A stretch of DNA of 26,495 bases. Origin: a virus. A program made the position numbers and the translations under genes. The notes beneath the pieces are model-generated. The model saw nothing but the letters and a program-made list of their open reading frames with translations. It had not been told where the DNA came from and did not search any database. The stretch covers positions 1 through 26,495 of the IMG/VR virus record IMGVR_UViG_3300035698_013143; one strand, given 5' to 3'. Positions 5,378-26,495 of this stretch are shown here, piece by piece (within the stretch, counting starts at the first letter, position 1; each line of letters starts with the position of its first letter).

Positions 5378-7963
5378 ATGAAAGGATTCTTCGATGGTAA
5401 TCAATACAAGACAAAAGAAGGTAGAAAAATTAAATCATGCGCCTCCTGTGGGTTGTTGACTGAAAACCCGCTACGGCAGCCCCAAGGTGAAGGCGGCAAG
5501 GGGATTTTAATCATAGTAGACAGGTTAACTCATACGGCGCATAGCAAGGGCAATTTTCTGGCAGATAAACATGGAAGATTCCTTACGAAAATATTAAGCG
5601 ATTTAGGTATTATAGTTGAACAAGACGTATGGCTTATGAGTGCTCACGCCTGCCCCTCACATACACAGGTGTCTAATCTTCAATACGATTGTTGTAACAA
5701 GAATTTGAAGAAACAAATAAAAGAAATAAAACCAAAACATATCATCTGCCTTGGAATTAGTGCCTTTCGTTCAGTTGTCAAGGAACATTATCACAAAGAT
5801 ATCACCGATTTAACCAAGTTTGAAGGTATAAACATACCGGATCAAACTTTAGGATGCTGGGTATCAGTGCTTCAATCACATGATAAAATTAACCAACAGA
5901 AGAATTATTCGGATGTTTTTCGTAATTGGAAAATTCAATTAAAACAGGCGTTTGCGATTGGAAATGAAGAAATTCCACCTTACACTCAATTACAAAACAG
6001 GTATAAGATAATCGAGGAACACAAAGAGCAAGTGCAATTTTTCAAATGGTTGGGGGAACAGAAGGAATTTACTACAGACATTGAAACAACGGGATTAAAA
6101 CCATATAACACAGACAGACATAAGATTGTGATTATTGGTTTCGCCGTCAATGATTGGGCTTATGTGATGCCCTTACCGAAAGGTAAGGCGTTACATTTGA
6201 TGAAAAAAGTTCTAAGTAATCCGGCTATTAAGAAAACTGCTCAGAATATGAAGTTTGAACATACGTGGTTCAAAACTATATTAGGAGTACATACAGAGGG
6301 GTGGCATTGGGATACAATGCAGGCACAGCATATAATAGACAATCGGGTAGGTATTACCGGATTAAAATTTCAAACCTATGTCAGGTTAGGAATAGCAGAT
6401 TACAGCTCACACATTGAAAAACATCTACAGGCGGAGGATAGTAATTCAGTTAATGGGATAGAGCTTGCCATGCAGGATACGACTATTCGGCACGATTTAA
6501 TGAAATACTGTGCTTTGGATTGTATGTGGACGGAAACCATCAAAAACCAGCAGAGAACGGAAATGACGGAGGGGCAGCAGGTTGCCTACGAATTAGTACA
6601 TACAGGTATTTTATCTTTCGCGGAAGCGGAGTGGCAGGGGATGAGAATTGACACAGATTACATTCATAAAACCTACATTGAAATTGACAACAAAATAGAA
6701 AGCTATGAAAAGAAATTAAAGAAAAGTAAATTCATAAGGGATTGGAAGAAACTATACAGGGAGAAAATGAACACCGGGAGTGGTACGCAATTGGCAGACA
6801 TCTTGTATAATCATTTAGGCTTAACCCCTCCGAAATTAACAGCTTCGGGAAAAGGGAGTACAGATGAAAATTCTTTATTCCAGTTAGATGTACCAGAATT
6901 ACATATGATACTGGAGATTAAGAAGTTACAGAAATTAAAGGCGACATATTTGCGTAATTTTGAAAAAGAAGCGATCGGGGGGTTCATGCACCCAGGATTT
7001 AATCTACATACTGTTCGTACTTATAGAAGTAGTTCCAATGCTCCTAATTTTCAAAACATTCCGAAACGAGATAAACAAGCCATGCAGACGGTTAGAGGAA
7101 GTATTTTTCCAAGAAAAGGGCATCAGTTAATGGAAGCAGATTTCTCAAAACTTGAGGTATCAATAGCTGCATGTTATCACAAAGACCCGGTGATGCTGGA
7201 ATATCTTACCTCAAATCACAATGATATGCACGGCGATTTGGCGCAACAAATTTTCTTTATTTCAGATAAAGATTGGGATAAACATTCCACCTGTCATAAC
7301 ATGTTAAGAGCGGCAACGAAGAACGGATTTATCTTCCCACAATTCTACGGTGATTATTACAAGAATAACGCTGAGGGTTTACGACAATGGGTAGAGCTCG
7401 GTACAGGGACTTGGAAACCTAACACAGGTATAGAAATGAATGATGGAACATTCATATCAGACCACATGAGAAATAACGGCATAAGGAGTTTTAAAGCCTT
7501 CGTAGAGCATCTTAGAATTATAGAAGAGGATTTCTGGAATAACAGATTTAAAGTGTATCAACAATGGAAGACAAAATGGATTCGCACTTTCCAAAAGCGA
7601 GGTTACTTTGATATGAAAACAGGGTTTCGGGTTTCTGGTAATATGCGGCAAAATGAAATTATCAATTACCCAATACAGGGAGCTGCATTTCATTGCCTAT
7701 TATGGAGCTTTATCCAATTGTCTGAGGAATTGAAAAGTAAGGGAATGGATACCAAGGTGATAGGTCAAATCCATGATGCAATTATCTTAGACGTTGCCCC
7801 TGACGAGTTGGATGAGATTTGCGTTATGATAAAAAGAATTACGACAATTGATTTACCAAAGGCATGGGATTGGATTATTGTACCGTTACAAATTGAGGCG
7901 GAATTATGCCCCGTGGATGCAAGTTGGGCGGAAAAGGCTGATTATTCGTTAGAAAAATATTAA
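5378..7963 (+). CDS. Family A DNA polymerase with N-terminal uracil-glycosylase-like domain (SPO1-type)
   Basis: 861 residues. Residues 1-190 resemble family-4 uracil-DNA glycosylase, with Cys21, Cys24, Cys92 and Cys105/106 in the pattern that holds a 4Fe-4S cluster; the usual glycosylase catalytic loop is not recognisable, so activity is doubtful. A DEDDy 3'-5' exonuclease follows (TDIETTG with Asp234/Glu236, AQNMKFEHTW, YCALDCMWT). The polymerase part has motif A MEADFSKLEVSIAA (Asp588), motif B RAATKNGFIFPQFYG and motif C QIHDAIILDV (His799-Asp800), where the usual HDE reads HDA but keeps the catalytic Asp. This is the domain order of SPO1-like replicative polymerases. It probably works with the clamp and loader nearby. 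The start has AAAGGA at 5362-5367, 10 nt upstream. Confidence 0.92.
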   Translation: MKGFFDGNQYKTKEGRKIKSCASCGLLTENPLRQPQGEGGKGILIIVDRLTHTAHSKGNFLADKHGRFLTKILSDLGIIVEQDVWLMSAHACPSHTQVSNLQYDCCNKNLKKQIKEIKPKHIICLGISAFRSVVKEHYHKDITDLTKFEGINIPDQTLGCWVSVLQSHDKINQQKNYSDVFRNWKIQLKQAFAIGNEEIPPYTQLQNRYKIIEEHKEQVQFFKWLGEQKEFTTDIETTGLKPYNTDRHKIVIIGFAVNDWAYVMPLPKGKALHLMKKVLSNPAIKKTAQNMKFEHTWFKTILGVHTEGWHWDTMQAQHIIDNRVGITGLKFQTYVRLGIADYSSHIEKHLQAEDSNSVNGIELAMQDTTIRHDLMKYCALDCMWTETIKNQQRTEMTEGQQVAYELVHTGILSFAEAEWQGMRIDTDYIHKTYIEIDNKIESYEKKLKKSKFIRDWKKLYREKMNTGSGTQLADILYNHLGLTPPKLTASGKGSTDENSLFQLDVPELHMILEIKKLQKLKATYLRNFEKEAIGGFMHPGFNLHTVRTYRSSSNAPNFQNIPKRDKQAMQTVRGSIFPRKGHQLMEADFSKLEVSIAACYHKDPVMLEYLTSNHNDMHGDLAQQIFFISDKDWDKHSTCHNMLRAATKNGFIFPQFYGDYYKNNAEGLRQWVELGTGTWKPNTGIEMNDGTFISDHMRNNGIRSFKAFVEHLRIIEEDFWNNRFKVYQQWKTKWIRTFQKRGYFDMKTGFRVSGNMRQNEIINYPIQGAAFHCLLWSFIQLSEELKSKGMDTKVIGQIHDAIILDVAPDELDEICVMIKRITTIDLPKAWDWIIVPLQIEAELCPVDASWAEKADYSLEKY

Positions 7964-14705: not shown

Positions 14706-16228
14706 GCGATTTAATTAACATATCGCAGTTACCGAAAGAGATGAGAAAACTAATCTCTAATCCTACCTTATTACAACAAGAAATTAATAATAGATCATTC
14801 TATGAATTTGTGAAGTATTTTTGGCAAGAAATATCAACCGAGGTACTCATAGATAATTGGCATATAGAAATTATCTGTAAAGAATTACAGAGATTAGCAG
14901 AGAGGGTATCAAAAGGATTGGTATTAGAGCATGATATTTTATTGAATGTTCCTCCTGGTACAAGTAAGACGACAATCACAGGGATTCTATTTCCGGCATG
15001 GTGTTGGAGCAGATGGTATTGGTTGAAATTCATTACGGCTTCTTATAGTAGTACCTTAGCGTTAGAATCAGCTGAAGTATGTAGGGATTTGATTAAGAGT
15101 GATAGGTATCAAACGTTATATCCAGAATTAGGTATTAAGACGGATAAAGACCAGAAGTCGAATTTTAGAGTTATAAAATTCGTTCGTTATGGTAAGGGCA
15201 AGAGAGTTAAGCAGTTAGTGGGTGGTGCTCGGTTTTCAACATCGGTAGGTGCAACCTTAACAGGGATGCATTGTCATATTTGGGTAGTGGATGATCCTTT
15301 GTCTGCGCAAGATGCTATTAGTAAGGTGAAAAGGGATACGGCAATACATTGGATGTCGCAGACACTTTCCTTAAGAAAAATTAATAAAGAAACAACCGCT
15401 GGTATTTGTGTGATGCAAAGGCTACATCCAGATGACCCAGCAGGTTATCTATTGAAACTAAAAGAAGAGCAAGGAAAGAAACTTAAACATCTTTGTTTTC
15501 CTGCGGAATTAGGTCCATATGAGTATAAGGTGAGGCCATTCAAATATCGAAAGTATTATAAAGACGGATTATTCGATAAAAATAGAATGCCTAGACAAGT
15601 GTTATTAGATTCCTTAATTGATTTAGGGCAATATGGGTACGCCGGACAAATGGGACAGGATCCCGCACCTCCTGAAGGTGGAATGTTCAAAGTTGATATG
15701 ATAAACATCGTTGATACTATTTCATCCGCCGGTACAATTACATCAATTGTTCGTTATTGGGATAAGGCTGGAACAAAAGATGGTGGGGCATTTACAGCCG
15801 GAATAAAGATAGCTAAAACCTCAGCAGGCAAATACATTGTCTTAGATATTAAACGGGGGCAATGGGCTTCACAGGAGCGAGAGCAGGTAATTAAAGCCAC
15901 AGCGGAAGCCGATGGAAGAGATGTGGAGATTTGGGTTGAGCAGGAACCGGGAAGTGGTGGAAAAGAAAGTGCAGAACAGACAATAAGAATGTTAGATGGT
16001 TTTGTGTGTAAAGCGGAAAGACCTTCGGGAGATAAAATATATAGAGCAGACCCGTTTTCTGTACGTGTTAATTTAGGCGATGTTTATTTAATTCGCGCAC
16101 CTTGGAACACTACTTTTACACAGGAGATGAGATTGTTCCCAAATTCTACGTATAAGGATCAGGTAGATGCTGCAGGTGCCGGTTATGCTAAGTTAAATGG
16201 AAAGAAAACGGTTAAGATAGGAAAATAA
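14702..16228 (+). CDS. Terminase large subunit (TerL), complete
   Basis: 508 residues. The ATPase part has a Walker A variant LLNVPPGTSKTTITG (84-90 core), Walker B CHIWVVDDPL (Asp197/Asp198), and QRLHPDDPAGYLLKL downstream. The RNase H-like nuclease begins at VRYWDKAGTKDGGAFTAG (Asp354), with a second acidic motif in EIWVEQEPGSGGKESAEQ and a third in STYKDQVDAAGAGYAKL. It packages DNA into the prohead through the portal next door. The start is the TTG at 14702 overlapping the TerS stop, or the ATG at 14741; the former keeps the coupled overlap. It is unlike the terminase fragment at 1-162, which ends in NHAIDAIRY. Confidence 0.93.
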   Translation: MSDLINISQLPKEMRKLISNPTLLQQEINNRSFYEFVKYFWQEISTEVLIDNWHIEIICKELQRLAERVSKGLVLEHDILLNVPPGTSKTTITGILFPAWCWSRWYWLKFITASYSSTLALESAEVCRDLIKSDRYQTLYPELGIKTDKDQKSNFRVIKFVRYGKGKRVKQLVGGARFSTSVGATLTGMHCHIWVVDDPLSAQDAISKVKRDTAIHWMSQTLSLRKINKETTAGICVMQRLHPDDPAGYLLKLKEEQGKKLKHLCFPAELGPYEYKVRPFKYRKYYKDGLFDKNRMPRQVLLDSLIDLGQYGYAGQMGQDPAPPEGGMFKVDMINIVDTISSAGTITSIVRYWDKAGTKDGGAFTAGIKIAKTSAGKYIVLDIKRGQWASQEREQVIKATAEADGRDVEIWVEQEPGSGGKESAEQTIRMLDGFVCKAERPSGDKIYRADPFSVRVNLGDVYLIRAPWNTTFTQEMRLFPNSTYKDQVDAAGAGYAKLNGKKTVKIGK

Positions 16229-20043: not shown

Positions 20044-20547
20044 ATGGCAAAAAACACAATTATTTTGAAAAATTACCTCAATATATTTGAGGAGTATTGT
20101 GCCGCAGGAGCAATCACCCCGGGTATGATGGTAACATTAGACACTTCAGGAGAGGTAAAGGCTCATGATGGTGCCGGCACCAATTTATTACCTATTGTAG
20201 CCACAGAAGATGAGTTACAAGGTAACGGAATTGATACCGCCTACGCTGCCGATGATCAAGTGCAATGCTGGATACCTCAACGAGGTGAAGAAGCTAATTT
20301 AATTCTTGCGGATGGCGAGAGTGTCGTAATTGGCGATTTCTTAGAAAGTGCTGGGGATGGTACGTTGGTAAAACACGTTCCAGATACAGAAAGTCTTGGA
20401 GCAGATTCTGCAGAGAATCTTACCACTATTTATACCAATCAGATTGTTGGTATGGCTTTGGAAGCCGTGGATTTGAGCGATAGTTCAGGAGCAGAATCAA
20501 GTGGTGCTCTCGGTTATAACAAAAGAATTCAAGTGAAATTCGTTTAA
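20044..20547 (+). CDS. Head decoration / capsid-stabilising protein
   Basis: 167 residues, all-beta looking, with GAITPGMMVTLDTSGEVKAH near the N-terminus and YAADDQVQCWIPQRGEEANL followed by ILADGESVVIGDFLES, which resembles the sugar-free beta-tulip decoration proteins encoded before major capsid genes. It would sit on the outer capsid surface. It is preceded by AAGGAGG 8-9 nt before ATG 20044, and the start lies 1 nt after the protease stop. Position directly before the capsid gene supports the call; a head-fibre base protein is an alternative. Confidence 0.7.
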   Translation: MAKNTIILKNYLNIFEEYCAAGAITPGMMVTLDTSGEVKAHDGAGTNLLPIVATEDELQGNGIDTAYAADDQVQCWIPQRGEEANLILADGESVVIGDFLESAGDGTLVKHVPDTESLGADSAENLTTIYTNQIVGMALEAVDLSDSSGAESSGALGYNKRIQVKFV

Positions 20548-20580: not shown

Positions 20581-21672
20581 ATGAATGTAAATGTAGATTT
20601 AGTTGGAAAAGGACAAACCAAAGGCGATTTAGCGAATCACGCTGCCTTAGACGGTTTGAATGTAGGGATGATGAGACCTTACCTTGCTGAGAATAAACAA
20701 GGTGTTTTAGGAGCTTATGCCACAATTTTTAATGGTGGAAACCCTGCAAACCCTAAGAGTTATGGAGTAATCCAAATTAATGGGGATGCCACGCTTCGTA
20801 GAGATGAATGGAAACACCTTGATGACGCTGTGTTACGGGTTGCCGAACAACGTTTAGTAGGTATTGACGATTTGAGAACACATGGGCTTGTGTATAATCT
20901 TGGAAATGCTTTTGCTACCACTGTTTTGGAAAATCACACAATGAGTGATGCCTTAGAGGCGGAATTGACTATGGATGCTAAAACCCGCAGTAAGAATGAC
21001 AGAGTAACGTTTGACACAACGTACACACCAATTCCTATTATCCACGTTGATTACCAGATCAATGCCCGAACATTGGCATCAAGTCGGAAACTAGGAAACG
21101 CCTTAGACACAAGTCAGGCAGAACGTGCGGCACGTAAAGTATCACAGAAGTTGGAAGATATGCTGTTTACGGATACTTCTTACAAATTCGGTGGTGGTGC
21201 GATTTATTCGTACCTGAATTATCCGGACAAAAATGATGTCACATTAACCTCGGAATGGGATGCATCTGCGAAGACTGCCACCCAGATTCTTGAAGATGTG
21301 ATGAAAATGAAGCAGGAAATGCTTTCCAATTACCAGTATGGACCTTGGATGCTGTACATTCCATCTAATTACGAAACCGTATTAGATGAGGATTATGATA
21401 GTACTACTCCGGGAACTACCTTACGTGAGCGCATTTTGAAAATTCAAGGAATTGACGGTGTCAAAACTGTTGACAGACTACCAGATGACAAGGTCGTAAT
21501 GGTTCAAATGAGTACGGATACCGTACGTTTGGTGAATGGAATGACTATGCAGAACGTTCAGTGGAGTTCTGAGGGTAACATGGTGAATAACTACAAAGTT
21601 ATGACTATTCAGGTTCCGCAATTGCGTTCCGATGACAACGGTCGTACGGGAATTGTTGTATTAAGTGCATAA
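20581..21672 (+). CDS. Major capsid protein (HK97 fold, encapsulin-like)
   Basis: 363 residues. WKHLDDAVLRVAEQRLVGID then DLRTHGLVYNLGNAFATTVL resembles the encapsulin/linocin-like branch of the HK97 fold, where a variant of this 'xxDxAVxRVAxxRLVGxDDLRxxGL' string forms the N-terminal helix region. A later KLEDMLFTDTSYKFGGGAIY corresponds to the 'EnkllF.G' loop, and PWMLYIPSNYETVLDEDYDS is the usual P-domain segment. It is the shell subunit. The start has AAAGGAG 8 nt upstream and a hairpin before it. A long-loop terminator-like structure follows the stop, consistent with high expression of this gene. Confidence 0.88.
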   Translation: MNVNVDLVGKGQTKGDLANHAALDGLNVGMMRPYLAENKQGVLGAYATIFNGGNPANPKSYGVIQINGDATLRRDEWKHLDDAVLRVAEQRLVGIDDLRTHGLVYNLGNAFATTVLENHTMSDALEAELTMDAKTRSKNDRVTFDTTYTPIPIIHVDYQINARTLASSRKLGNALDTSQAERAARKVSQKLEDMLFTDTSYKFGGGAIYSYLNYPDKNDVTLTSEWDASAKTATQILEDVMKMKQEMLSNYQYGPWMLYIPSNYETVLDEDYDSTTPGTTLRERILKIQGIDGVKTVDRLPDDKVVMVQMSTDTVRLVNGMTMQNVQWSSEGNMVNNYKVMTIQVPQLRSDDNGRTGIVVLSA

Positions 21673-21810: not shown

Positions 21811-22344
21811 ATGAAAAGAAATGCACACGTAGAAATAGAAAAAGGTATGAAACAATTTTGTAAGATTGGTGGAGGAAGTCTTAGGCTTGCCGATGGTAGA
21901 AGGATTAAACCAAATCAATTATTTTGGGAGCATCCTGAAGTATTATCTAAGTCAGCTCTTATGGCAGTCAAAGAGGTACAGGGGAATGATATCCCAAAAC
22001 AGAAACAGGATAAGCCTAAAGACGTTAATTCGTTCAAATACTCAACAAAAGAAACCGATGAGGGATTTGTTGTAATAGATGAGAATGAGAAGGTGTTATC
22101 TGAGCCGGCTTCCGCCGAACAAGCAGAGGAATGGGCTTTCCTTCTAAGCTCCGGGAAAAAAGTCAAAGACTTAAACTTACACCCACAGGAGCAGGATACG
22201 GGGGATACTGTAATTGAATTTCACAAAGAGCAAGTGAGCCCAGGTTGGTTTGTCGTTAAAAATACGGCCGGAACACAAGTAAGTGAAGGTAAGATGCATA
22301 GCAAGAACGCAGATGCCTATATAGCTGAATTGTTAGAGGAGTAA
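21811..22344 (+). CDS. Hypothetical protein with two similar domains, 177 aa
   Basis: Unrecognised. The N-terminal part contains a basic KQFCKIGGGSLRLADGRRIK patch and a short helix. Two later segments look alike: KETDEGFVVIDENEKVLSEP and KEQVSPGWFVVKNTAGTQVS, each a beta hairpin of the form G[FW][VF]V followed by an acidic helix (EQAEEWAFLL; KNADAYIAELLEE), so an internal duplication is likely. AAAGGGG (21794-21800) precedes the ATG by 10 nt, and the gene starts a new transcription stretch after the capsid terminator. It could be a capsid-associated or connector-related protein; function unknown. Confidence 0.65.
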   Translation: MKRNAHVEIEKGMKQFCKIGGGSLRLADGRRIKPNQLFWEHPEVLSKSALMAVKEVQGNDIPKQKQDKPKDVNSFKYSTKETDEGFVVIDENEKVLSEPASAEQAEEWAFLLSSGKKVKDLNLHPQEQDTGDTVIEFHKEQVSPGWFVVKNTAGTQVSEGKMHSKNADAYIAELLEE

Positions 22345-22348
22345 GAGG

Positions 22349-23059
22349 ATGCGGGTATTACCTAAGATATGGACGAAAGCAGACGTTTGGTTAATTGGAG
22401 GCGGTGCGAGTGTGTTAGAGCAGTTTGCTATCCCTTCTGATATCATTGACGAGGTAAGAAACAAGGAGAAAGATGTGTCTTGTTTTAGTCCTTATCTTTC
22501 CGCCTTACATGACAAACACGTAATAGGTGTCAATGTGGCATTCAAGTTAGGTGATTGGGTTGATATTTTGTTTTTCGGAGATTTTAAATTCTTCGAAGGT
22601 TTTAGAAAGGAAATTGCGGCGTTTAAGGGAATTAAAGTCAGCTGTCACAAACGTTTTCGAGGTAATGAGTTTCGTGCGGAAAATATTAAATATTATTCCC
22701 GATCAAGAGAACAAGGATTGAGTAATAGCCCAGACAGCATATTATGGCACGGAAACTCCGGCGCTGCGGCGATTAATTTTGCCATTCATTTAGGCGTCAA
22801 AAGAATTTTTCTATTAGGGTTTGATATGGATTTGAGCGAGGAAGGATTTCAGCATTTTCATAATGAGTACACCTTACCCGGTAAATCTGGAGTAAAAGTA
22901 ACAAGTAAAGACCTTCCATTTAAGAGACAATCTACCGGATTTGCCGCAATAGCAAGCGCATCAAGAAAATTAGGTGTTGAGGTAATTAATGTATCACCAA
23001 ATAGCACGATTAACGTGTTTAGAAAGATGACAGTAAAAGAGGCATTGAGTTATGATTAA
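22349..23059 (+). CDS. DUF115/MptE-like Rossmann protein, probable sugar-modification enzyme
   Basis: 236 residues. The N-terminus ADVWLIGGGASVLEQF is a Rossmann nucleotide-binding start. HVIGVNVAFKLGDWVDILFF then GDFKFF is the 'viGvNxxxxlxxxvDxxffxD' pattern, and ILWHGNSGAAAINFAIHLGV followed by KRIFLLGFDM is the second conserved block of the DUF115/MptE-like superfamily. Members include enzymes of glycan synthesis (for example motility-associated glycosyltransferases) and a pterin pyrophosphokinase. Phage copies are mostly uncharacterised. It starts in AGAGGAGTAAGAGGATG and overlaps the next glycosyltransferase by 8 nt. With the GT and sulfotransferase that follow, a carbohydrate role is the best guess. 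Confidence 0.65.
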   Translation: MRVLPKIWTKADVWLIGGGASVLEQFAIPSDIIDEVRNKEKDVSCFSPYLSALHDKHVIGVNVAFKLGDWVDILFFGDFKFFEGFRKEIAAFKGIKVSCHKRFRGNEFRAENIKYYSRSREQGLSNSPDSILWHGNSGAAAINFAIHLGVKRIFLLGFDMDLSEEGFQHFHNEYTLPGKSGVKVTSKDLPFKRQSTGFAAIASASRKLGVEVINVSPNSTINVFRKMTVKEALSYD

Positions 23060-23693
23060 GAAATTTGTTTGTGTACTAAAATCAGGGGGTGACTATCAGC
23101 CAAAACAGGTGATAAATTTATTTCATCAATGTGCGAAATATCTTTCACAAATGGATGAATTTATCTGTTATACGGATGTCCCGATCAATTACCCAGGGGT
23201 AATTGAAAAACCTTTGATAGGAGATTTAGAAGGGCGGTGGAATATGCAAGAGGTTACCCGGGAAACTGGGCATGTTATTGCCACAGGTTTGGATATCTTG
23301 TTTCGTGAAAATTTGAATTGGTTGTGGAAAATAGAAGTGCAACCAAACGAAGTGTATGGGATGCACGCATTTAAGGCGTCTAAGAAATGGGCGAATGGAG
23401 TCACATTGTGGAAAGGTGATTGGCGGAAAATTTATACAAATTACAATAACAGAATTGCGTATAGAAAATATGACTTAGAACAAAACTGGACGGCGGAGAA
23501 ATTAAGACGGGAAAAGGCGCAATTGTGTTACCTCGAAGATAAGGGGCTTAAAATCGCTTCATATAAGGTACATCTTTTGACACTGCAAAAGGGTTTAGAG
23601 GACGTTGATATAGTGATATTTCACGGACAACCCAGGCCTCACAATTTACCCAATGAAAGTATTATAGGAAAATTATATAAAGATTTTGATTAA
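23052..23693 (+). CDS. GT8-like glycosyltransferase
   Basis: 213 residues. The N-terminal KKFVCVLKSGGDYQPKQVIN resembles the opening strand of sugar-nucleotide glycosyltransferases. GHVIATGLDILFRENLNWLW sits where a 'DxD'-like metal site follows a Leu-Asp strand, although the canonical DxD is not seen. The end VDIVIFHGQPRPHNLPNE is very like the HG-x-PRP end motif of phage and bacterial GT-A proteins. It overlaps the preceding DUF115-like gene by 8 nt and is followed by the sulfotransferase after 1 nt, so all three are one expression unit. The probable reaction is sugar transfer to a virion or cell-surface acceptor; donor unknown. Confidence 0.65.
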   Translation: MIKKFVCVLKSGGDYQPKQVINLFHQCAKYLSQMDEFICYTDVPINYPGVIEKPLIGDLEGRWNMQEVTRETGHVIATGLDILFRENLNWLWKIEVQPNEVYGMHAFKASKKWANGVTLWKGDWRKIYTNYNNRIAYRKYDLEQNWTAEKLRREKAQLCYLEDKGLKIASYKVHLLTLQKGLEDVDIVIFHGQPRPHNLPNESIIGKLYKDFD

Positions 23694-23694
23694 A

Positions 23695-24405
23695 ATGAAA
23701 CAACCTATTTTAATCACAGGCGCAGCACGGAGCGGAACCAGTATGGTTGCCGGGTGTATTGAATTGGCAGGAGCCTTCGGGGGAATTACCAGTCCTCCAA
23801 ACAAGAATAACGCCAAAGGGATGTTTGAAAATATATACATTCGGAACAACGTTGTAAAGCCTTATCTAAGGGGGTTAGAAGTAGATTCAAAATGCCAATT
23901 TCCTCTCCCAGAAATTGATCACACACCATTACCTTGTGATTGGAAGGAAAGAATCGAAATAAATATTATCCACCAAGGGTACGATGGCAGTGGCGAATGG
24001 TATTACAAAGGTGCTAAAATGTGCCTGATGTGGAAATTGTGGAAAGAAGCATATCCAGATGCGAAATGGTTAATCGTACGACGGGACACGGAAGAAATTG
24101 TCTCTTCATGTATGAAAACGGGATTTATGACCGCTTTCGCAAATTCTCATAATCAAAGAAAAGTCGGGGTAACCTCAGAACGGGCAGGTTGGAGATGGTG
24201 GGTTGATCAGCACTTGAAGCAATTTGATTCCATGTTAGCAGATGAGGAATTAAATGTACGGGTAATACGACCAGAAAAATTGCTCTTAGGAGATTACAGT
24301 GAAATGTATGAAGTATTGCCTTGGTTAGGCTTAGAATGGAACCCGGAAATTGTTAATTTCATTGAACCAAAATTATGGAAAACAAGAAAAAAAGGACTTA
24401 AATAA
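23695..24405 (+). CDS. PAPS-dependent sulfotransferase
   Basis: 236 residues from ATG 23695. The TTG three codons earlier lies in the previous gene's stop region, so ATG is preferred. The 5'-phosphosulfate loop is ILITGAARSGTSMVAG (Thr8-Ser16), and the 3'-phosphate site is KWLIVRRDTEEIVSSCMKTG (from Arg129), both classic sulfotransferase signatures. The end (LPWLGLEWNPEIVNFIEPKL) is also typical. It moves sulfate from PAPS to a hydroxyl or amine acceptor, most likely a sugar given its neighbours. Phage sulfotransferases are rare and usually of unknown target. Its stop overlaps the connector gene (TAATG), so it is translated within the late operon, indicating expression during virion assembly. 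Confidence 0.85.
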   Translation: MKQPILITGAARSGTSMVAGCIELAGAFGGITSPPNKNNAKGMFENIYIRNNVVKPYLRGLEVDSKCQFPLPEIDHTPLPCDWKERIEINIIHQGYDGSGEWYYKGAKMCLMWKLWKEAYPDAKWLIVRRDTEEIVSSCMKTGFMTAFANSHNQRKVGVTSERAGWRWWVDQHLKQFDSMLADEELNVRVIRPEKLLLGDYSEMYEVLPWLGLEWNPEIVNFIEPKLWKTRKKGLK

Positions 24406-24779
24406 TGGGACGAACTACGGCAGTCGAGGTTAAGCAGATAATTGAAACATCATTAGAGGATGCCATTGTAGATAGTTATATCAAGGGGGCAAATTTACTG
24501 GTAACTCAGGTATTAGGGGCATCGGCATTACCCTCCGAATTATTGGCGGAAATTGAAAGGTGGCTAACGGCTCATAATATCGCGATCACACGAGAACGGA
24601 TGGCGAAAACGGAAGGTGCTGGAGGGGCGTCTATTACATACATAGGCGAGGCTGGTGTTGGTTTGAATGCGACACCTTATGGACAAATGGTAGTAACGTT
24701 AGATACGTCAGGGAAAATGAAAGCATTAGGCAGTAAGCCTATCAAATTTCATGCAGTGCCTAAACAAATGGAGAATTAA
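24405..24779 (+). CDS. Head-to-tail connector (gp6-like adaptor)
   Basis: 124 residues, with an N-terminal helical half (TAVEVKQIIETSLEDAIVDS, LPSELLAEIERWLTAHNIAI) as in adaptor proteins that sit under the portal, and a small C-terminal beta part (GEAGVGLNATPYGQMVVTLD). It is the first of three short genes between the sulfotransferase and the tail-terminator-like gene, the standard order for adaptor, stopper and completion proteins in siphoviruses. Its start overlaps the sulfotransferase stop. No strong motif defines it; assignment rests on fold-like pattern and order. Confidence 0.65.
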   Translation: MGRTTAVEVKQIIETSLEDAIVDSYIKGANLLVTQVLGASALPSELLAEIERWLTAHNIAITRERMAKTEGAGGASITYIGEAGVGLNATPYGQMVVTLDTSGKMKALGSKPIKFHAVPKQMEN

Positions 24780-25159: not shown

Positions 25160-25648
25160 ATGGCACGCAAAAAGGCACGATTAAAAGGAATACAGGATGT
25201 GACGCAAGGTCTAAATACAGCTTTCGCCAAAATAAAAGGCGGTAGTAAGAAAGGTCTTATTGAAGCGTCAATTTTGATTAGAAGGGATATGGAGGCTACC
25301 TCGCCGAAGATTCCTTTGGATACTGGAAACTTACGTGCCAGTTGGTTCAGTGTCATAGGAAATGGAAATATAGCAAACTCAGGACAATTTAAGGGGAAAG
25401 GTGCTGGGAACGAAAAAGCACTTCATTCCCAGGCAATCTCGGTTGCAAATAATATCACAAAATCTACGGTTAATCCGGTTATCATTTTAGGTTTTTCAGC
25501 CAGTTACGCTGAAATCGTACACGAGGTAATGGATAGTAAGATTTCTTATAATCGGGCTGGTAGTGGGCCCAAATTCTTTGAGTCCGCTCTATACAGAAAT
25601 AAACAGCAGATTTTGAAAATAATTATGGAAAACACAAAGGTAAGATAA
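25160..25648 (+). CDS. HK97 gp10-like neck/tail completion protein
   Basis: 162 residues. LKGIQDVTQGLNTAFAKIKG at the N-terminus, ILIRRDMEATSPKIPLDTGN followed by LRASWFSVIG, and the C-terminal ILGFSASYAEIVHEVMDSKI plus GPKFFESALYRNKQQILKII are the standard gp10-family blocks, notably 'P.dTGnLRaSw' and 'YA.iVHe'. This protein completes the head-tail joint. It starts 5 nt after the stopper-like gene and is followed within 1 nt by the tail-terminator-like gene. Confidence 0.85.
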   Translation: MARKKARLKGIQDVTQGLNTAFAKIKGGSKKGLIEASILIRRDMEATSPKIPLDTGNLRASWFSVIGNGNIANSGQFKGKGAGNEKALHSQAISVANNITKSTVNPVIILGFSASYAEIVHEVMDSKISYNRAGSGPKFFESALYRNKQQILKIIMENTKVR

Positions 25649-25649
25649 T

Positions 25650-26495
25650 ATGAATAGTGTATCCTATGACATATCGCAATTAATTGAGTTTCAGAGTGAG
25701 GGGGAGATGGTATTTGCGCAGAATCTTTTCATCGGAAGGGAGCCTGCGGAAATCCCGGCATCTACCGTCATTACGTTATTCGATACAAGTTCCGCAAGTC
25801 CCTCCTCTACCTATTCTGGCAGTGATTACATGTATGATTCTATTCAAATTAGGATTAGAAGTAATTATGAAGATGCCTTTGTGATGGCAACGAATTTGAA
25901 ACGTTGGTTACACAACAAGATACCGGGGCTTATTAACGGAACCTATTATAAATTGGTACGGTTAAATTCAGGCCCTGCGGTACTGGATTATGATGAAAAA
26001 GACCGTGTAAGAATAGTAATGAACTTTATCATCCACAGAACGGATGATACAAACATTGTAATTATGAATTTAGGTGATATAGAATTTCATGTAGGAATTA
26101 CGGATTCCTCAGACCCTTTCCCAGATGTCGGGCAGTCAAACGTCTTATACGTTGATAAAGGCGAGCAATCCCAATATCTTTGGGATATTGTTTCCGAGGC
26201 ATACGTACAGATAGGCGGTGGCGGCGGTGGTGTGACTGTTCACAATGAAACGACAGACAGGGATGCAGAGGATGCTCATCCTCAGAGTGCTGTTACTGGG
26301 TTGGTTGATGATTTGGCAGCGAAGCAGGACAAACCAATAGTCTCAAGTTTAACTATTCCAGCAGCCAGTTGGGTTGCAGATGAACAAACGGTTACAGTAA
26401 CAGGTGTAACAGCTGATAATGAAGTAGATGTAATTATAGAAACGCAAGTTGATGGTGATTTGTGGGCGGATGCTAACATCTATGTAATTTCACAG
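25650..26495 (+). CDS. Tail terminator-like protein with C-terminal fibre-like extension, partial
   Basis: The frame from ATG 25650 stays open to the right edge (282 codons, no stop seen). Residues 1-130 (SYDISQLIEFQSEGEMVFAQ, then YDSIQIRIRSNYEDAFVMAT and a final strand VRIVMNFIIHRTDDT) resemble small tail-terminator proteins that cap the tail tube (about 130 aa). Unusually, the protein continues with NVLYVDKGEQSQYLWDIVSE, six glycines (189-194), HNETTDRDAEDAHPQSAVTG, and a beta domain starting IVSSLTIPAASWVADEQTV. The AHPxSAxTGL segment and Gly linker are typical of phage fibres and baseplate or head whiskers. It looks like a terminator carrying a neck fibre. It has no usual stop position, so the true length is unknown. 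Confidence 0.7.
   Translation, partial: MNSVSYDISQLIEFQSEGEMVFAQNLFIGREPAEIPASTVITLFDTSSASPSSTYSGSDYMYDSIQIRIRSNYEDAFVMATNLKRWLHNKIPGLINGTYYKLVRLNSGPAVLDYDEKDRVRIVMNFIIHRTDDTNIVIMNLGDIEFHVGITDSSDPFPDVGQSNVLYVDKGEQSQYLWDIVSEAYVQIGGGGGGVTVHNETTDRDAEDAHPQSAVTGLVDDLAAKQDKPIVSSLTIPAASWVADEQTVTVTGVTADNEVDVIIETQVDGDLWADANIYVISQ

Follow-up and report, generated by a model that had tools for sequence, protein, structure and literature searches.

Genes for Maf enzymes are often found in variable sugar islands near flagellin genes. In several bacteria, these enzymes O-glycosylate serine and threonine residues of flagellin; the PF01973 domain, which forms their central part, resembles CstII (PMC11339370). 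Phage particles can be glycosylated as well: glycans are described on the capsids and tail tubes of the mycobacteriophages Che8, Rita and their relatives (Freeman 2023, cited in PMC12619734, PMC11256854). Phage sulfotransferases have been treated as auxiliary metabolic genes in OM43 phages (PF13469), glacier ice and estuary viromes (PMC10580990, PMC8290583), and a statement in the first of these accounts is that their biological function "remains unclear" (PMC10580990).

A sulfated, capsid-linked version of the virion glycosylation already known in mycobacteriophages would be new. Searches of the open-licence literature turned up no sulfated phage particle, and we know of no sulfated virion of a bacterial virus. 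The window analyzed here is a virus record of 26.5 kb, whose head genes and island all lie on the + strand. Three enzyme genes in it, encoding an MptE-like protein, a glycosyltransferase (GT) and a sulfotransferase, are a copy of a cassette that recurs between the major capsid protein (MCP) and head-tail adaptor (Ad1) genes in a large group of uncultured tailed phages.

Gene content of the window

Upstream of the MCP gene, the window encodes a terminase, a portal, a MuF protein, a protease-like DUF2213 protein and a 167-aa protein, and the Ad1-like gene is followed by a small neck protein, then Neck1 and the tail terminator (Table 1). Ad1 had 124 matching ORFs across the fetched loci. As originally predicted, three intact enzyme genes run in one direction, tightly packed between the MCP region and Ad1, and both the coordinates and the junctions agree with that description. 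The gp21811 gene is separated from the MptE-like gene by a 4-nt gap, the latter overlaps the GT gene by 8 nt, and the sulfotransferase gene overlaps Ad1 by 1 nt. The junction between GT and sulfotransferase is a 1-nt gap with the ATG start (236 aa) and an 8-nt overlap with the TTG start at 23686 (239 aa). Because relatives begin at the matching position, ATG 23695 is the most likely start. Elsewhere in the window, positions 5378-7960 encode a DNA polymerase A that has a 3'-5' exonuclease domain; toward its N-terminus, residues 53-146 match the uracil-DNA glycosylase superfamily (E 5e-6).

Table 1. Island genes and their neighbors in the window.
Feature	Position	Strand	Evidence and place in the island
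Major capsid protein (MCP; DUF6260/Linocin)	20581..21672	+	PF19774 E 2e-21, PF04454 E 3e-12, phrog_771 E 5e-26; upstream anchor of the island
Small protein gp21811	21811..22344	+	N-terminal GGGS(F/L)R domain and C-terminal repeat; possible acceptor or docking protein
MptE-like / Maf-fold glycosyltransferase	22349..23059	+	236 aa; phrog_4603 E 4e-29; first island gene; predicted protein-linking enzyme
GT-A-like glycosyltransferase, phrog_1962 type, TGLD motif subfamily	23052..23693	+	213 aa; phrog_1962 E 4e-10
PAPS-dependent sulfotransferase (predicted)	23695..24405 (alternative TTG start 23686)	+	PF13469 E 2e-7; last island gene
Head-tail adaptor Ad1-like, DUF4054	24405..24779	+	PF13262 E 8e-5, slightly below cut-off; downstream anchor
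Neck1/tail completion protein	25160..25648	+	phrog_5 E 1.5e-7; context gene
Tail terminator	25650..26495	+	PF12691 E 5e-10; continues past the window end; context gene

Recurrence of the island between capsid and adaptor genes

A scan of IMG/VR with the single sulfotransferase protein retrieved 8 loci, and a scan with the alignment of those 8 retrieved 281, of which 80 were retained; the MptE-like alignment retrieved 73 relatives. The sulfotransferase is under purifying selection (median dN/dS 0.096, 92 pairs), and median values for sulfotransferase, MptE-like protein and APS kinase lie between 0.06 and 0.11, comparable to the MCP, with the MptE-like value drawn from 4 pairs only. With 281 sulfotransferase and 73 MptE relatives and such low dN/dS, the three-gene set is no chance occurrence. 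Since only 2 loci of the sulfotransferase clade were present in 84,980 bacterial and archaeal species genomes, and tblastn gave no match in cultured phage records, the clade is essentially viral. Stop codons interrupt two sulfotransferase copies, in L131 (record G015, 51047-51717) and L061 (record G006, 38397-39044), possibly through decay or sequencing error.

Over the loci, the gene order is portal, MuF, DUF2213, a 20044-type protein, MCP, gp21811, MptE-like, variable genes and sulfotransferase, followed by an optional APS kinase, then Ad1 and the neck genes. Ad1 lies at most three genes after 91 of the 116 distinct sulfotransferases, directly in 67 and via an APS kinase in 20; among the rest, the next neck gene is downstream in 4 and the contig end is reached in 8. 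The sulfotransferase tracks Ad1 with rho 0.43, no worse than the head genes do among themselves (Ad1-neck, rho 0.31).

Because these loci had been fetched by island proteins, we repeated the sampling from the MCP alone, using the closest 80 of 334 matches, a result valid for the near lineage. Among the 29 complete MCP-Ad1 intervals of this sample, none was empty, 28 contained the MptE-like gene and 20 the sulfotransferase. As ~30% of the sampled relatives lack the latter, the system can do without sulfate. Hardycor1 and StAshley, cultured relatives at a greater distance, carry a single small ORF between MCP and Ad1, without the island. The smallest islands contain the MptE-like gene and sulfotransferase (L115, L140) or the MptE-like gene only (L097, L153), and the larger ones hold up to ~13 kb of sugar enzymes between the two. 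Both genes are present on 22 long contigs, and on every one of these the MptE-like gene precedes the sulfotransferase on the same strand, with a spacing of 2.0-13.4 kb. The idea of a cassette of three enzymes therefore stands as to its location in the head operon, but the set is no one-off; it is rather a variable island whose first and last genes are conserved.

Other arrangements were also seen. In L024 (1173-3393) and L045 (2-2438), the MptE-sulfotransferase pair lies downstream of Ad1, not upstream. L139 (1569-4143) carries an MptE-like gene, a GT/MptE fusion and a sulfotransferase together, and no structural match was found in its flanks. Because no head gene is recognizable in this locus, the set may be able to spread to phages of other types. 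In the jumbo Stenotrophomonas phage RAS14 (L164, 5957-8642), a cluster of three MptE-like ORFs and one GT of the window type stands beside ribonucleotide reductase genes.

Predicted enzymes and a shared domain

The MptE-like protein of the window scores 17.1 bits against PF01973, below the curated cut-off of 34.6, and we therefore describe it as working like Maf and not as a PF01973 member. Its AlphaFold2 model (pLDDT 92.7) has the predicted fold of the central Maf/CstII domain: the best structural match is Maf of Magnetospirillum (5mu5; Z 15.1, rmsd 3.8, 192 residues aligned), followed by CstI (Z 11.8), CstII (Z 11.4) and the archaeal pterin kinase HPPK (Z 10.4). A role as a pterin enzyme was considered and rejected, as HPPK ranks under Maf and CstI/II and the setting is one of sugar chemistry. 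MptE-like domains also occur in longer frames of 454-501 aa, probably fusions, in L097 (record G010, 14830-15516) and L128 (record G014, 32214-32894).

In the second enzyme, the DxD motif is reduced to its final Asp (TGLD). The same motif is found in the closest relatives in the alignment (up to 43% identity); it is therefore a trait of the subfamily, and we rejected the reading of this GT as a decayed gene. We profiled 120 representatives of the variable island genes. Methyltransferases and glycosyltransferases, including GT2, were the commonest matches, and rarer ones were nucleotide-sugar epimerases/dehydratases, a carbamoyltransferase, an aminotransferase, radical-SAM enzymes and extra sulfotransferases. 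A strong transmembrane score was obtained for 19 of the 886 island ORFs, and from its gene content the island appears to be a set of soluble enzymes that build sugars in the cytosol.

The last enzyme matches PF13469 with 31.8 bits (cut-off 27); an NCBIfam search gave nothing useful. Among 77 relatives, residues R15, S16, R133 and S141 never vary, G17, T18 and S19 are conserved in at least 90%, and E48, K108 and K111 are nearly invariant. The 5'-phosphosulfate loop (RSGT/S) and the 3'-phosphate site (R-x7-S) are conserved in the relatives, and R15, S16, R133, S141, E48, K108 and K111 fit PAPS sites and candidate catalytic residues. For the predicted structure (pLDDT 94.1), sulfotransferases take the first 28 places among the fold matches (Z 15.3 to 10.4). 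PAPS as the donor is independently supported because APS kinase genes, whose product carries out the PAPS-making step, adjoin the sulfotransferase directly in 30 of 32 distinct cases. The first 24 PDB matches of the APS kinase profile are APS kinases, alone or in bifunctional sulfate-activating enzymes (best E 1.7e-25), over approximately the first 100 positions only, the phage C-terminus being different. No APS kinase above cut-off was found in the window, where PAPS would therefore come from the host. Sulfate transfer by the window enzyme is a prediction, to which the APS kinase neighbors in relatives lend indirect support.

Of a different kind is gp21811, which follows the MCP in nearly all cases and by this position would be a head protein. 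Its N-terminal domain of 45 residues (K-x-GGGS-(F/L)R...IIKPNQ-x-F) is encoded immediately before the MptE-like gene in 26 of the 26 records tested. In seven proteins, the domain is fused to cassette enzymes or other island proteins; the partners are MptE-like and FkbM methyltransferase domains, GT8, a capsule-synthesis-like protein (Capsule_synth E 2e-4) and a 314-aa protein. Among the seven carriers, L109 is separate and the other six are relatives of one another (MCP 73-95% identical). Within the 26 long records, the domain is confined to gp21811 or fused island enzymes. Because it is common to gp21811 and the enzymes and otherwise unused, both may dock on one partner, and the pattern suggests that this partner is most simply the capsid. 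A PHROG search with gp21811 gave no informative match, and the domain profile did not match the small ORFs of the cassette-less Hardycor1 and StAshley, to which a faint likeness is visible by eye. The C-terminal repeat of gp21811 apparently occurs twice in the window and once in relatives, judging by eye from the alignment.

Possible targets of the proposed modification and relation to described systems

The acceptor of the sulfate may be a sugar or a protein. The glycosyltransferases could decorate a virion protein while the sulfotransferase acts directly on a tyrosine of a head or neck protein. Among solved structures, tyrosylprotein sulfotransferases are indeed closest to it, both in the profile search (E 5e-5) and in the fold comparison (Z 15.3 vs 12.8 for the next group), and it is the constant last gene, next to Ad1, of an island whose sugar enzymes vary. 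Identity to them is only ~16%, however, and sugar sulfotransferases have the same fold (Z ~11). The pairing with sugar enzymes and the extra sulfotransferases of larger islands also favor a sugar acceptor, and we consider direct tyrosine sulfation unlikely. Enzyme genes in a late operon can also be present without acting on the virion. The island could instead remodel a capsule, O-antigen or other host surface glycan for superinfection exclusion or release, with its place in the late operon serving timing only. Serotype-modifying glycosyltransferases do occur in temperate phages (PMC12619734), and some island proteins are akin to capsule and polysaccharide enzymes, namely the capsule-synthesis-like protein above and a Polysacc_synt_2 match (E 4e-85). 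Against this stand the strict link to the capsid gene, the few membrane proteins, the fusion to enzymes of a head-operon domain that is absent elsewhere in the 26 records, and a search for the GtrA flippase (PF04138) that found none in 26 long records and scored in 7 of 14 control genomes. Such host remodeling appears to us quite improbable.

Hypermodification of phage DNA, or synthesis of a small sulfated compound with a metabolic or counter-defence role, is a third alternative. Systems of base glycosylation and sulfation have been proposed from genomes, as the citing source reports (Iyer 2013, cited in PMC10829341), and the islands include FkbM methyltransferases and radical-SAM enzymes. The genes nevertheless lie among head and not replication genes, the folds are Maf-like and protein-sulfotransferase-like, and no Tet/JBP oxygenase matched in 26 records, in a search where no control genome scored either. 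We regard this explanation as very improbable.

We favor, with moderate confidence, the reading of the window trio as a capsid-linked glycosylation-sulfation island whose enzymes, acting in the cytosol, add sugar and sulfate to a virion protein. The island genes would be transcribed together with the head genes; late expression would follow from gene position, and no promoter signal above shuffled sequence was detected at the island. While the virion protein is still in the cytosol, the Maf-fold MptE-like enzyme would place a sugar on its Ser/Thr residues, and the GT, joined in relatives by many further sugar enzymes, would lengthen or vary the glycan. The terminal sulfotransferase would then transfer sulfate from PAPS, supplied by the host or topped up by a phage APS kinase, so that the particle would bear a coat of sugar and sulfate, negatively charged and specific to the lineage. 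Candidate acceptors are the MCP, gp21811 or the 20044-20547 protein. We infer the order of these reactions and any benefit. As the original prediction suggested, such a virion might attach to sulfated host glycans or evade antibodies or mucus. That prediction of a glycosylated and sulfated virion is partly upheld, in that a PAPS sulfotransferase and glycosyltransferases are tied to head genes, and modification of the virion itself is probable; the support comes from the position fixed in a capsid lineage, the Maf-like and TPST-like folds, the adjoining APS kinases, the lack of GtrA and the head-operon domain fusions.

More tentatively, a widespread phage group might coat its capsids with sulfated glycans through a dedicated island, a docking domain bringing the enzymes to the capsid. 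Such an island may consist of a constant Maf-like starter, a variable lineage-specific sugar section and a near-constant sulfotransferase, in many cases accompanied by a kinase that makes its PAPS. With hundreds of clade members tied to a capsid gene, PAPS synthesis and a Maf-like enzyme, the particle surface becomes a concrete, testable target. Should the proposal hold, the chemistry of phage surfaces would be more varied than has been assumed, with consequences for stability, host-surface interaction and immune recognition.

The island would then be to the capsid what glycosylation islands are to flagellin. Maf is the closest fold to the MptE-like protein and O-glycosylates Ser/Thr on a self-assembling surface protein (PMC11339370). 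Unlike Maf, the phage proteins consist of the central domain only and fall under the PF01973 cut-off. NeuB, for nonulosonate donor supply, was not found in 26 records, possibly fragments, with a control positive in 9 genomes, and the host may supply the donor. In mycobacteriophages, phage-encoded glycosyltransferases are held responsible for the capsid and tail-tube glycans; the window group, too, encodes glycosyltransferases, here linked to virion genes. The accounts of Maravista place its glycosyltransferase genes near the genome 3' end and, in the parts concerned, leave sulfation unmentioned, whereas in the window group the island keeps its place between MCP and Ad1, with the Maf-fold enzyme first and the sulfotransferase last.

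TPST1/2 and other PAPS sulfotransferases (PF13469) share the fold and PAPS-binding motifs of the phage enzyme, whose clade, unlike TPST1/2, is almost only viral. The auxiliary metabolic sulfotransferases, in the passages that treat them, are described without a link to the head operon, APS kinase coupling or a virion target. A related setting is seen in the D3-like Pseudomonas phages, which have a phrog_4603-type gene (PmgO / "alpha-2,3-sialyltransferase"; ORF010 of PAJU2) in the head operon beside connector genes; in D14O, GT9 and methyltransferase genes lie between the adaptor and neck genes. Their phrog_4603-type protein is shorter (134-189 aa), the phages lack a sulfotransferase and have another capsid family, and the PAJU2 copy is annotated as a structural protein. 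As cultured phages, they offer a related system for bench work.
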